33,945 nt of DNA from Candidatus Zhuqueibacterota bacterium (GTDB taxonomy: Bacteria; Zhuqueibacterota; Zhuqueibacteria; Zhuqueibacterales; Geothermadaptataceae). A program made the translations under genes and the position numbers. Location of the stretch: contig JAUZRQ010000023.1 of assembly GCA_030950365.1 (NCBI GenBank), positions 67,235 to 101,179 on the forward strand, given 5' to 3'. The notes under the pieces are model-generated. The model saw only the letters and a program-made list of their open reading frames with translations, was not told where the DNA came from and did no database searches. How positions within the stretch are numbered: position 1 is the first letter of the stretch; each line of letters begins with the position of its first letter. Shown piece after piece: positions 4,648 to 11,003 of this stretch.

Positions 4648-4699
4648 TCCAGTTCCCGTAGGTTAATCGATCCAATACATCCAAAGACAAAAAAAATAG

Positions 4700-4773
4700 C
4701 AGGCCAGGAGGGACTCGAACCCCCAACCACCGGTTTTGGAGACCGGCGCTCTACCAATTCGAGCTACTGGCCT
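4700..4773 (-). tRNA. tRNA-Trp (anticodon CCA)
   Basis: Read on the minus strand, the acceptor stem AGGCCAG pairs with CTGGCCT, with discriminator G. The anticodon stem-loop CCGGT-CTCCAAA-ACCGG gives anticodon CCA, and the T arm is intact (GGGGGTTCGAGTCCCTC). The 3' CCA is not encoded; the genome has GCTA there. It starts only 12 bp after the rpmG stop codon, so it must be cut out of the same transcript that carries rpmG and secE. Confidence 0.96.
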
Positions 4774-4785
4774 GTCTATGGGAAA

Positions 4786-4935
4786 TCAGCGGGTCTCTTT
4801 GTGCAGGGTCCGTTTGTTGCAATACGGACAATATTTTTTATACTCTACACGCCCGCTGTGTTTTCTCTTGTTTTTCGTGGTCGTATAGTTCCGACGTTTG
4901 CACTCAGTGCATTCCAGTGTAATGATCTCGCGCAT
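4786..4935 (-). CDS. rpmG: 50S ribosomal protein L33
   Basis: A 49-residue L33 that begins [19 protein letters not shown] and ends [15 protein letters not shown]. Four cysteines in two CxxC pairs (residues 9, 12, 36 and 39) make it the zinc-binding C+ form, not the zinc-free paralogue used under zinc starvation. The ATG is preceded by GAAGG. The gene sits between tRNA-Thr(GGT) and tRNA-Trp, its usual place upstream of secE. The tuf gene that commonly precedes it is absent. Confidence 0.95.
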
Positions 4936-5043
4936 CGCAACCTTCTTTCGATTCTTACGGTTCCTATCGGTTCAATTCATCCCGGCCCTGCCTTGACCTG
5001 CGGCAAACCGATCCCTGCGGCAGCCGGTCATGGTAAAAAATAG

Positions 5044-5116
<73 letters not shown>

Positions 5117-5152
5117 TTGTGGGGAAATCGATTCAAACCGAACGCATCGAAG

Positions 5153-5225
5153 AGCGGGAGACGGGACTCGAACCCGCGACCAACAGCTTGGAAGGCTGTG
5201 ACTCTACCAACTGAGTTACTCCCGC
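5153..5225 (-). tRNA. tRNA-Gly (anticodon TCC)
   Basis: On the minus strand the acceptor stem GCGGGAG pairs with CTCCCGC, with discriminator T. The anticodon loop CTTCCAA is closed by ACAGC/GCTGT and gives anticodon TCC. The 3' CCA is not encoded. It matches E. coli glyT in position and anticodon. Confidence 0.96.
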
Positions 5226-5248
5226 CTATCTTTTTTAGTCAGGCTATT

Positions 5249-5315
5249 CTAACCTCCTTATATGCGTTCCGTTCTGGCAAGCATTTAGGATGTGGGCAAT
5301 AGTGCAGGAGGTTAG
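5249..5315. repeat. Inverted repeat between tRNA-Gly and tRNA-Tyr
   Basis: CTAACCTCCT at 5249-5258 and its exact complement AGGAGGTTAG at 5306-5315 enclose 47 bases inside the 135-bp spacer of the tRNA operon. In the minus-strand transcript the arms resemble an anti-Shine-Dalgarno and a Shine-Dalgarno sequence, but no open frame follows. It could shape the spacer for RNase processing. The function is unknown. Confidence 0.55.
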
Positions 5316-5360
5316 ACCCTGTTTACCGCTCTAACACCGCTCGTTCAACCAGAAAAGAGA

Positions 5361-5443
5361 TGGGGAGGGGAGGATTCGAACCTCCGAAGGCATACGCCAA
5401 CAGATTTACAGTCTGTCCCGTTTGGCCGCTTCGGTACCTCCCC
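5361..5443 (-). tRNA. tRNA-Tyr (anticodon GTA)
   Basis: A class II tRNA of 83 bases with a long variable arm. On the minus strand the acceptor stem GGGGAGG pairs with CCTCCCC, with discriminator A. The anticodon loop CTGTAAA is closed by ACAGA/TCTGT and gives anticodon GTA. The 3' CCA is not encoded. It matches E. coli tyrU in position. Confidence 0.96.
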
Positions 5444-5454
5444 GCAATCCGAGG

Positions 5455-5527
5455 AGCCACCAGCAGGATTCGAACCCGCGACATCCTCATTACAAGTGAG
5501 GCGCTCTACCAACTGAGCTATGGTGGC
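5455..5527 (-). tRNA. tRNA-Thr (anticodon TGT)
   Basis: On the minus strand the acceptor stem GCCACCA pairs with TGGTGGC, with discriminator T. The anticodon loop CTTGTAA is closed by CCTCA/TGAGG and gives anticodon TGT. The 3' CCA is not encoded. It is the first gene of the operon, about 65-70 bases downstream of the promoter at 5600-5629, and matches E. coli thrU. Confidence 0.96.
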
Positions 5528-7987: not shown

Positions 7988-9421
7988 CTATTCCAGCACC
8001 CAGCGCTTGATGAGCCGCCGGCACTTTTCCTTGCCTAGGATTTCCGCCACCAGCGGCAGGTCCGGACCGTGCATTTTGCCGGTCAGCGCGATGCGCACTG
8101 GCATCCACAAATCCTTGCCCATGACTCCGGTCTCCTCACTCACCACTTTCATGATTTTGCGAAACTGTTCCACGGTCATCTGTCCGATGGTATCCAGTTG
8201 CCGCAGAAAACTCCAGAACACCTTCTGGGTGGATTCACGGTTGAGCATGACCACGGCCTGCTCGTTTTCGGGTTCGGATTCATCAATAAAAAACATTTCG
8301 CTTTTGGCGATCACGTCCTCGAGCTTCTCCAGACTTGGCTGTACCACCCGGATTATTTTCTCCAGCACCAGTCGGTCCGGCAGTTTATAACCCGCCTTTT
8401 TCAGATATGGCACGCACAGATCGGTGAGATGCGGCACATCCATCTGGCGGATGTACACACCGTTCATCCAATTGAGCTTTACGACATCGAAAATCGCCGG
8501 CGATTTGGACACGCGCGAGAAGTCGAATTCATCGATTAACCGCTGCACCGAAAGAATCTCCTCGCCGCTTTCGGATGACCAGCTCAACAGGCTGAGATAA
8601 TTGATCAGCGCCTGCGGCAGGTAGCCGTGCTTGGCGAACTCCTCCACCGAGGTCGCGCCGTGGCGTTTGGACAGCCGCGTGCGGTCCGGGCCGAGAATCA
8701 TCGGGATGTGCGCGAAGTGCGGCGTCTCCCAGCCGAATGCCTGGTACAGCGCAATCTGTTTCGGCGTGTTCGACAGATGGTCATCCCCGCGGATGACATG
8801 CGTGATTTGCATCAGGCCATCGTCCACCACGCAAGCGAAATTGTACGTGGGCATGCCATCGGCACGCAGGATGATGAAATCGCCAATCTGCCCGGCCGGG
8901 AACGTGACCTCGCCGCGAACGATATCGTCGAAGCTTAAATCGACTTCGGGCACATGAAAGCGGATCACCGGCTTGCGGCCCTCGGCCTCGAACGCCTGAC
9001 GCTCGGCCTCGGTCAGGTTCCGGCAACGGCCGTCGTAATTGGCCGACCGGCCTTCGGCAATCGCCTTTTGTTTGCGCTCTTCCAGCTCATCCGGCGTGCA
9101 GTAGCAATAAAACGCCTTGCCTTCCTGCAACAGGCGCTCGGCATGCTCGCGGTAAATGACCAGCCGCTCGGACTGCCGGTACGGCCCGTGCGGCCCGCCC
9201 ACGTCCGGCCCCTCATCCCAGTTCAGGCCGAGCCAATGCAGGTCCTGCAAAATGCCGCGCTCACTTTCCTCGCTGGAGCGTTCGACGTCGGTATCTTCAA
9301 TGCGCAGGATGAATGTACCGTTTTCATGCCGCGCGAAAACCCAGTTCATAATCGCCGTACGGGCGTTGCCAATGTGCAATTTTCCTGTGGGACTCGGTGC
9401 AAATCGAACACGCACGCTCAT
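7988..9421 (-). CDS. gltX: Glutamyl-tRNA synthetase
   Basis: Class I synthetase for Glu (or Glu/Gln). It is 477 residues. HIGN sits at 16-19 in FAPSPTGKLHIGNARTA, and the KMSKS equivalent is LSKRHG (250-255). A zinc-binding insertion is present, with C106 and C108 (CYC) and Y129 and C133 (YDGRC), as in the E. coli type. The C-terminal anticodon-binding domain is complete. The ATG is preceded by GAGGG. It is the first gene of a likely gltX-btpA-cysS operon. In related genomes gltX is often adjacent to ispDF; here the DUF3800 insertion separates them. Confidence 0.97.
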   Translation of the reverse strand: MSVRVRFAPSPTGKLHIGNARTAIMNWVFARHENGTFILRIEDTDVERSSEESERGILQDLHWLGLNWDEGPDVGGPHGPYRQSERLVIYREHAERLLQEGKAFYCYCTPDELEERKQKAIAEGRSANYDGRCRNLTEAERQAFEAEGRKPVIRFHVPEVDLSFDDIVRGEVTFPAGQIGDFIILRADGMPTYNFACVVDDGLMQITHVIRGDDHLSNTPKQIALYQAFGWETPHFAHIPMILGPDRTRLSKRHGATSVEEFAKHGYLPQALINYLSLLSWSSESGEEILSVQRLIDEFDFSRVSKSPAIFDVVKLNWMNGVYIRQMDVPHLTDLCVPYLKKAGYKLPDRLVLEKIIRVVQPSLEKLEDVIAKSEMFFIDESEPENEQAVVMLNRESTQKVFWSFLRQLDTIGQMTVEQFRKIMKVVSEETGVMGKDLWMPVRIALTGKMHGPDLPLVAEILGKEKCRRLIKRWVLE

Positions 9422-9556
9422 TCCGTTACCCTCATTTGCGTATCAATGGACCTTCGTTCATGCCGGGCAAGAAGGCAAAGCGAAGAATGGTAAGTCAGTT
9501 GATCACAAATAATGAATAGCAAAATATCTAAAACGAACCATTTCCGCTGAATGAAA

Positions 9557-9585
9557 TTGACTTTTCAAAAAAAATATTTTATATT
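9557..9585 (+). promoter_or_regulatory. Sigma-70 promoter driving a putative small RNA
   Basis: Plus-strand TTGACT (9557-9562), an ideal 17-base spacer, then TATATT (9580-9585), in an AT-rich stretch. No plus-strand coding gene follows; the transcript would run into the terminator at 9626-9648. Both flanking genes are on the minus strand, so this promoter has no protein-coding client. Confidence 0.75.
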
Positions 9586-9590
9586 AAAAT

Positions 9591-9648
9591 AATCCGTGAT
9601 TGCGGAGGTGGATGGCATAGCCATCGGGGCCTGTAAAGGCCCTTTTTT
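9591..9648 (+). ncRNA. Putative small RNA, about 57 nt, two hairpins
   Basis: Starting about six bases after the -10 box, the transcript would hold an unpaired GGAGGTGG segment, a perfect hairpin GATGGC-ATA-GCCATC (9611-9625) and a perfect terminator hairpin GGGCCT-GTAA-AGGCCC with six T (9627-9648). Promoter, hairpins and terminator fit an autonomous small RNA gene and nothing else in the interval. Its 3' end abuts the stop codon of the convergent DUF3800 gene. No known RNA family was recognised. The region also holds the three-codon frame ATG-GCA-TAG directly after the purine-rich segment. Confidence 0.55.
9626..9648 (+). terminator. Rho-independent terminator of the putative small RNA
   Basis: A perfect 6-bp GC-rich stem (9627-9632 with 9637-9642), GTAA loop, possible extra G-U pair, then six T at 9643-9648. 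On the minus strand no T tract follows the hairpin, so it works in the plus direction only. The last Ts overlap the DUF3800 stop codon. Confidence 0.8.
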
Positions 9649-10417
9649 ATAGCATTTTCTTGCCATAAATTTTATTTCCGCGTTGATAATATTTGTGAGT
9701 AAGTATTTGAATGATTTTTTCCCCAAAGCGTGCAGGTGGATGAGCCTTGAATTTATTCTCATAAAGTATCTCATTCCTACTTGGATGGGCAATTAAGTCT
9801 GCTATTTGTAATCCTGAAATATTATTTTGTTTTTGCTTTACCTTAAGTTCCCTAGAGGTTAAAACTCTCTGAAATCTTTCTGGAGCTATAAAGTCTGTAC
9901 CTGACTCCCATAACCTCCGAAAGGCTCTTTTTAAACGAGTATCTTCCTTCCCACCACGAGACTCTGCCATCACATCCCCTTTAGCCATGGATTGCTCTAA
10001 AAAGAAAACATATCGCTCCAAAAGAATGGCTAAACAATAATGGTAAGGATCATAACGCCATACGGTGTAAGTTTCTTTATGCCTTTTCTTATCCAGACAA
10101 ACAGAAATAACCACATATGTCCACTGTTCAAGTAAATTGAGCAATTCTTTATCAAATTGATGTCGAATATTAGCATCCTTAAGACATTCAAAAGGAGGGC
10201 GTGCGTTTAACAACTCTTTTCTATGTAAAATAACAGGATCGTCTGGATGCGAATTGAAATATTTTGTTTTTAATGCCTCCAATTGTGGGTGAACGATATT
10301 TTTAACATAGGACAATTCAAAAACAACGCCGCTAAGGCTAAGAAACCTATGATTCGGATTGTCTGAACTTTCCAAATCTGGATTGCCAACTTCATCGATA
10401 TATATTCGATATTTCAA
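9647..10417 (-). CDS. DUF3800 family protein (predicted RNase H-like fold)
   Basis: A 256-residue protein of the DUF3800 family (PF12686), often found on mobile or variable loci and thought to adopt an RNase H-like fold; activity is unproven. The N-terminus KYRIYIDEVGNPD carries the acidic DE.GN motif, with a Val where most members have Ser. The C-terminal part has the typical GLQIADLIAHPSRNE with a second acidic residue. The TTG at 10417 is chosen because it puts the core at residue 2 and has GGGAG upstream. The frame is open further, but that part lies antisense-free inside ispF in another frame and is not expected to be coding. Codon use is much AT-richer than its neighbours. It separates ispF from gltX and probably arrived by transfer. 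Confidence 0.8.
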   Translation of the reverse strand: MKYRIYIDEVGNPDLESSDNPNHRFLSLSGVVFELSYVKNIVHPQLEALKTKYFNSHPDDPVILHRKELLNARPPFECLKDANIRHQFDKELLNLLEQWTYVVISVCLDKKRHKETYTVWRYDPYHYCLAILLERYVFFLEQSMAKGDVMAESRGGKEDTRLKRAFRRLWESGTDFIAPERFQRVLTSRELKVKQKQNNISGLQIADLIAHPSRNEILYENKFKAHPPARFGEKIIQILTHKYYQRGNKIYGKKML

Positions 10418-10526: not shown

Positions 10527-11003
10527 TTATGGAAACTGCTCAATAAGCGCCACTGCGAAGGCGGCCATGCCTTCCTCTCGCCCGATAAACCCCATTTTTT
10601 CCGAGGTCGTGGCTTTGACCGATACCGCCCCGACATCCAGTTGCAGCCCTTCGGCAATGTTTTTGCGCATTTGCTCCACATAGGGCGCGATCTTCGGCCG
10701 TTCTAACACCAGGGTGGCGTCGATGTTGACCGGCCGGTATCTGTGCCGCTGCAGCAGGGCAGCGACCTCCTTCAAAAACAGCAAGCTGGAAAAATTGGCG
10801 TACATGGGGCTGCTATCCGGGAAATGTTGGCCGATATCGCCGAGAGCCGCCGCGCCCAAAAGCGCATCGATGACCGCATGCAAAAGCGCATCGGCGTCGG
10901 AATGGCCGGCCAGCCCCTTTTCATGGGGGATGCGCACGCCGCCGAGAATCAGCGGCCGGCCTTCAGCCCATGGATGCACGTCGTATCCGAATCCAACTCT
11001 CAA
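10527..11003 (-). CDS. ispF: 2-C-methyl-D-erythritol 2,4-cyclodiphosphate synthase
   Basis: MEP-pathway enzyme that cyclises CDP-ME 2-phosphate to MEcPP, a step of isoprenoid synthesis. It is 158 residues, standard for the trimeric enzyme. The zinc ligands D8 and H10 (GYDVHPW) and H42 are present, and [13 protein letters not shown] is intact. The C-terminal [19 protein letters not shown] is the nucleotide-contact signature. Its start overlaps the ispD stop by four bases, indicating translational coupling. Confidence 0.97.

Follow-up and report, generated by a model that had tools for sequence, protein, structure and literature searches.

A conserved small RNA encoded tail to tail with a DUF3800 gene: a probable two-gene RNA-protein module in more than 12 bacterial phyla

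Within the window analyzed here, a stretch of 33,945 nucleotides from a Candidatus Zhuqueibacterota bacterium, a short intergenic segment facing the end of a DUF3800 gene carries what look like all the parts of a small-RNA gene. Is this segment a real gene, and what would such an RNA have to do with the protein whose gene it faces? The first-pass annotation of this DNA described a promoter (TTGACT, 17 bases, TATATT), a 6-bp hairpin, and a terminator, with the 3′ end of the RNA meeting the stop codon of the convergent gene. Each of these is present as it was read: the −35 box TTGACT (9557-9562), the 17-base spacer, and the −10 box TATATT (9580-9585) score 10/12 against the consensus, the hairpin reads GATGGC-ATA-GCCATC, the terminator has the form GGGGCCT-GTAA-AGGCCCT with GTAA as its loop, and the T-run that follows overlaps the TAA stop codon of the DUF3800 gene at 9647-9649. 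The inventory of hairpins was correct for the two that were named but overlooked a third at the 5′ end, at 9593-9606. The features of the locus are collected in Table 1.

Table 1. Features of the RNA gene, the DUF3800 gene, and their flanks, in positions of the window
Feature	Position	Strand	Basis
Sigma-70-type promoter of the RNA, TTGACT-17-TATATT	9557..9585	+	Consensus match; conserved spacing in relatives
Putative structured small RNA, ~58 nt, from AAUCC start to terminator T-run	9591..9648	+	Sequence, fold, alignment, covariation
Hairpin 1, UCCGU-GAUU-GCGGA, 5 pairs	9593..9606	+	Fold; 3/5 pairs covary in relatives
Unpaired linker GGUG, within invariant AGGUGG	9607..9610	+	Invariant columns of alignment A1
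Hairpin 2, GAUGGC-AUA-GCCAUC, 6 pairs (9611-9616/9620-9625)	9611..9625	+	Fold; covariation
Intrinsic terminator, stem GGGGCCU/AGGCCCU (7 pairs) plus T-run	9626..9648	+	Consensus match; fold
DUF3800 protein, 256 aa, TTG start	9647..10417	-	Pfam PF12686; start by homology
gltX-type glutamyl-tRNA synthetase, housekeeping flank, outside module	7988..9421	-	Synteny; Pfam tRNA-synt_1c
ispF, housekeeping flank, outside module	10527..11003	-	YgbB match of syntenic relative; empty site

Promoter-like consensus matches in a 3-kb region numbered 3 against 3.0 expected, and terminator-like matches 3 against 3.8 expected. Both are at chance level, and the case for an RNA gene thus rests on conservation. 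The 60-nt segment folds into three hairpins with an energy of −27.6 kcal/mol, compared with −17.0 ± 3.0 for shuffled sequences (z −3.5). We placed the 5′ end of the RNA by reference to its relatives, in which the −10 box ends mostly 5 to 7 nt upstream of AAUYC, and a start of transcription at this motif is very likely. The best sigma-70 match in the upstream regions of relatives (n = 57) averages 9.4/12 and reaches at least 9/12 in 43 of them, and 52 of the 57 regions hold either such a match or the Bacteroidota-type TAnnTTTG; the promoter appears to be conserved in each host's own type.

The structural evidence comes from an alignment of 55 RNAs (alignment A1), from which RNAalifold, unprompted, returned hairpin 1 (UCC..GGA), an unpaired GGUG, hairpin 2 (GAUGGC/GCCAUC), and the terminator. 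In helices 1 and 2, 97.7% of the cells are paired, as opposed to 85.4% in shuffles and 30 to 57% when the helices are slid. Two-sided changes fill 81 cells against 25.0 in shuffles. Covariation scores 0.431, compared with 0.199 for shuffles and no more than 0.08 for the slid controls; kinship among the RNAs inflates such counts, and the slid controls retain that kinship. Two of the five covariation measures (pairs with a two-sided change and further pair types) did not rise above shuffles. Compensatory changes occur at five pairs of the two helices: the second pair of hairpin 1 changes from C-G to U-A in relatives, and the third pair of hairpin 2 (columns 28-43) is found as U-A, A-U, G-C, and C-G. 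Only the short hairpin loops vary, with no variable segment or tail in the alignment, and the invariant bases are mostly structural or part of the linker. The terminator stem is replaced in relatives by another G+C stem.

Several simpler identities for the element were considered and set aside. GGAGGUG complements the anti-Shine-Dalgarno (anti-SD) sequence of 16S rRNA and could mimic a Shine-Dalgarno sequence, but relatives exchange GGAGG for GAAGG together with UCC for UUC; because this paired swap preserves the stem while abolishing complementarity to the anti-SD, the constraint on hairpin 1 lies in its pairing. A leader peptide (GGAGGTGG-ATG-GCA-TAG) loses its ATG in many relatives (GGTGGAAGG). 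No known Rfam RNA matched; weak resemblances to Atu_C8, Spy1786666, and BjrC fell below threshold and lay mainly in the terminator.

How tightly is the RNA bound to the DUF3800 gene? Using the DUF3800 protein alone as the query against the genomes of 84,980 species, one per species, we recovered 56 loci with relatives of the protein, and in 52 of them the same RNA is convergent at the stop codon: on the opposite strand lies AAUYC...GRAGGUGG, followed by a hairpin and a terminator. Three of the remaining four loci (L063, L066, and L069) sit on contigs that end in or just past the gene, and the fourth (L074) is a scattered fragment; among evaluable loci, we found no full-length DUF3800 gene of the same type without the RNA. 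Judged by their record titles, carriers belong to more than 12 phyla, including KSB1, Desulfobacterota, Planctomycetota, Acidobacteriota, Bacteroidota, Chloroflexota, Nitrospirota, Chlorobiota, Latescibacterota, Cloacimonadota, and Armatimonadota. Two of the carriers are named isolates, Desulfoferrobacter suflitae DRH4 and Runella zeae DSM 19591. The RNA that had been called an orphan thus has a constant partner. The first-pass annotation had also proposed an RNA-protein module and held that conserved co-occurrence with compensatory changes would support it; both are clearly seen, and on this comparative evidence we take the RNA and the DUF3800 gene to be a real two-gene RNA-protein module.

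A census that started from the RNA, with covariance model R1, complements this picture. Across 82 genomes of the window's own phylum, R1 gave 10 matches of at least 64 bits in 9 genomes, and all others fell below 28 bits; at E ≤ 1e-7 it matched 16 of 395 genomes in the phylum of L022's genome and 6 of 395 in that of Runella zeae. The 29 RNA loci of at least 42 bits drawn from three phyla include 20 with a full-length DUF3800 frame opposite the RNA (two of them frameshifted) and nine in which the RNA faces a DUF3800 fragment or nothing. Strong copies of the RNA number one per genome in 21 of the 22 protein-positive genomes and two in the other (G084).

Individual loci show further variations on this layout. 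At L086 (~820-1335), the RNA is intact and only a C-terminal remnant of the DUF3800 gene is left, with a ParE/RelE-like pair, named by eye, in its place; downstream of the RNA at L180, a HicAB-like pair, also named by eye, stands where the DUF3800 gene was, and again only a C-terminal remnant is left. L183 holds the RNA without any trace of DUF3800, and the convergent gene there resembles DUF4276 by eye only, possibly another partner or a product of chance. In G034 the RNA was matched twice, each time at a contig end, and the two matches probably represent a single copy. RNA cousins at L095:1501 and L186:1570 share hairpin 1 and AGGUGG and have a different hairpin 2 and terminator, and the DUF3800 proteins beside them are 38 to 43% identical; given these cousins, the RNA family must be wider than model R1.

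The two genes also appear to travel together. Distances among the RNAs correlate with distances among the proteins (Mantel r = 0.64; 0 of 9,999 permutations). In the window's genome and in a congener (G001), the pair sits between ispF and gltX, and in four members of the same family (G002 to G005) ispF is followed directly by gltX, with both module genes absent. Comparison thus strongly supports the inheritance, gain, or loss of the RNA and the DUF3800 gene as one unit. The distribution of the module is patchy, and the protein tree, in which Desulfobacterota and Planctomycetota each fall in more than one supported clade, suggests horizontal transfer. Joint gain or transfer of both genes is supported by all three lines of evidence; the earlier idea of a mobile element is not, because single strong copies are the rule and neither a transposase nor any third partner recurs among 134 flanking proteins. 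The commonest families among these are DNA methylases (5), HNH (3), and HTH (3), counts without a background control that hint at defense neighborhoods.

Other homes for the module were likewise rejected. There is no multi-copy element and no recurrent partner to make it a transposon, and the 138-168 matches in four genomes are apparently only promoter-like A+T stretches. A phage or plasmid home for this RNA type was likewise set aside: phages and plasmids yielded only distant DUF3800 proteins, less than 35% identical among the matches listed, and viral contigs yielded none. The window also holds, at 4699-5527 on the - strand, five clustered tRNA genes (Trp, Thr, Gly, Tyr, and Thr).

What, then, does the convergent gene encode? 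The listed open reading frame begins at 10681, which is too early, as homology begins at the TTG start in nearly all loci. DUF3800 (PF12686) is the sole family returned by the Pfam scan (E 2e-12; 48.5 bits against a cut-off of 21), so that no family-level sequence match links the protein to RNase HII (PF01351). Invariant residues include D8, E9, G11, H65, R66, D109, K110, WRYDPYHY, E152, R154, G155, D159, and D207. An AF2 model (pLDDT 93.7; pTM 0.90) was compared with the PDB by Foldseek, and the only matches at E ≤ 0.001 were to RNase HII 1eke, in both of its chains (E 1.8e-4; probability 1.00; TM-score [query] 0.42). A profile comparison of DUF3800 with RNase HII aligned only IDEVG, a 10-residue motif of the first strand. 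The model thus predicts an RNase HII-like fold, in keeping with the RNase H-type fold that the first-pass annotation had predicted and with the RNase H fold reported for DUF3800 (PMC10910872), and by analogy D8, E9, D109, and a late acidic residue may form the active site. A sequence-based profile search of the PDB yielded nothing useful, nor did PADLOC, NCBIfam, or PHROGs, and we found no function for DUF3800 in the literature searched.

DUF3800 RNA motifs were reportedly first described by Weinberg et al. in 2017. An association of DUF3800 with RNA motifs is cited in PMC10910872. The Rfam 15 DUF3800 models gave no match at E ≤ 10 in the window at 9400-9800 and none at E ≤ 5 in 12 related loci. 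Like DUF3800-V (RF02964), DUF3800-I (RF02969), and DUF3800-IX (RF02968), the present RNA would be a structured RNA gene beside a DUF3800 gene, and at L131 and L150 (model matches of 1.4e-5 and 8.9e-15) DUF3800-V is likewise convergent and ends a few bases from the stop codon. The present RNA, however, is ~58 nt long with three short hairpins and AGGUGG, whereas DUF3800-V is a nested structure of 96 positions. Adjacency in most members, covarying structure, and convergent layout, by which DUF3800-associated RNA motifs are recognized, are all found here, and we assign the RNA to this known kind as a type absent from Rfam 15.

Comparison also strongly supports a tendency of DUF3800 clades toward their own RNA class, and further convergent RNA types recur at DUF3800 genes in other genomes of the KSB1 phylum. 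The second DUF3800 gene of the window's genome (G000:C48; L083:2240-2340, - strand) faces a structured RNA placed convergently as here but of another type, GGAAUCC..AGGU..ACCU..GGAUUCC plus a terminator (z −3.5); L124 holds a near copy, and no Rfam family matched above threshold. Plasmids and a phage (L117, L118, L120, L121, and L122) carry a separate convergent type just past the DUF3800 stop, a GAYUGGG-NNNN-CCCGGUC hairpin followed by GGCG and a terminator; still another, at the DUF3800 stops of L123, L125, and L141, reads GAGACCUUGCUG..GGGCCUC with a CCCCGG terminator, and neither is in Rfam. L150 has two DUF3800-V RNAs (1182-1278 and 1324-1421) one after the other beside a single DUF3800 gene, and the outer of these is the weaker. 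Such RNAs are not universal to the domain, since distant DUF3800 genes in Lactobacillales phages and in some clades of the KSB1 phylum show none.

The most likely reading of the module, to which we give slightly less than even confidence and in which we infer the transcription, the binding, and the sign of the effect, is an RNase HII-like nuclease restrained by its RNA. A short RNA composed of hairpin 1, the invariant AGGUGG, hairpin 2, and the terminator would be made from its own promoter, and the convergent gene would encode an RNase HII-like nuclease. The RNA would bind its own DUF3800 protein and hold the nuclease inactive, as an RNA antitoxin does, until phage infection or some other stress upset the balance and freed the nuclease. 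Because it has no variable segment, the RNA is more likely to be a structural ligand than a guide. In nine of the 29 RNA-first loci the RNA outlasts an eroded or absent DUF3800 gene, and the reverse was not seen, an antitoxin-like asymmetry that is weak evidence for an inhibitor because a gene ~13 times longer (~770 versus 60 bp) would decay first anyway. We also count toward an inhibitor role the ParE/RelE-like or HicAB-like genes at former DUF3800 sites, the patchy distribution, the lack of a third gene, and the CI-like repressor or integrase genes that lie close to distant phage DUF3800 genes. Assigning the module to defense, to toxin-antitoxin systems, or to something else is a matter of conjecture.

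The linkage would be explained just as well by a cofactor role. It is a serious, if on balance unlikely, alternative that the DUF3800 nuclease needs the RNA as an obligate cofactor or scaffold to become active against an invader or transcript, as other nucleases need omega-RNA or crRNA; strict linkage, a separate strong promoter, an invariant unpaired AGGUGG, and co-inheritance all speak for such an effector, as do the DUF3800 proteins that occur with Cas12a2 (PMC10910872) and in V-A2 and VI-F loci (PMC12669027). The RNA, however, ends in a terminator and offers no variable segment to serve as a guide, and RNAs persist beside deleted DUF3800 genes. The RNase HII-like fold, the conserved acidic residues, and a stand-alone gene with its own promoter would also suit a dedicated RNase that matures or degrades a small RNA acting in trans on mRNAs. 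We consider this improbable: most of the invariant bases belong to the structure or the linker, unrelated phyla with unrelated transcriptomes share these hairpins, and different DUF3800 clades have different RNAs. Still less probable is antisense control of a type I-like kind, by base-pairing of the RNA to the DUF3800 mRNA at its 3′ end. The genes do converge, and with the T-run over the stop codon an mRNA extended by read-through would be antisense to the RNA along its full length, yet pairing in cis requires no conserved sequence, and the hairpins and AGGUGG have been kept, with covariation, from phylum to phylum; a 256-aa nuclease-like protein, moreover, is no small membrane toxin. We regard as already refuted the idea that the segment is just a terminator working in both directions, or a set of chance signals where two genes converge. 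Judged by consensus alone, the promoter and terminator matches do not exceed chance, but 55 homologues share a conserved promoter, an invariant linker, and two further hairpins that covary, and the opposite strand has no T-run directly after the strong hairpins.

DUF3800 is a common domain whose RNA partners had been listed and left functionally unexplained. For one RNA type there are now covariation, conserved promoters, near-complete linkage over more than 12 phyla, and a confident structural model that points to RNase HII. A catalog of motifs has thereby become something that experiments can address, a single protein with a single 58-nt RNA whose known stems can be exchanged. Should the RNA prove to hold the nuclease in check, the pair would represent a new and widespread kind of toxin or defense system under RNA control. 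It is possible, if well short of probable, that DUF3800 proteins at large are RNase HII-like nucleases, each under a dedicated clade-specific small RNA encoded tail to tail, and that they constitute a broad, unrecognized class of RNA-regulated toxin or phage-defense module, of which the present RNA would be a new multi-phylum type.

Among known systems, RNase HII (1eke) shares with the DUF3800 protein the IDEVG motif and the predicted fold, but the DUF3800 protein is linked to an RNA and is not a housekeeping enzyme; the window's genome has a separate RNase HII. TnpB and IscB join a small RNA, the omega-RNA, to an RNase H-fold nuclease, whereas the present RNA is terminated, lies on the opposite strand, and is without a guide segment; we saw no transposon ends or CRISPR array around the module, of which there is one copy per genome as a rule. 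In contrast to type I toxin-antitoxin systems, the protein has 256 aa and is not a small hydrophobic toxin peptide. Type III toxin-antitoxin systems (ToxIN, CptIN, and TenpIN) differ in that the present RNA is a single unit with its own promoter on the opposite strand, not a set of tandem repeats, and in that the protein is predicted to be RNase HII-like and not of the ToxN fold, but they too pair an RNA partner with a nuclease-like protein in a minimal two-gene module.
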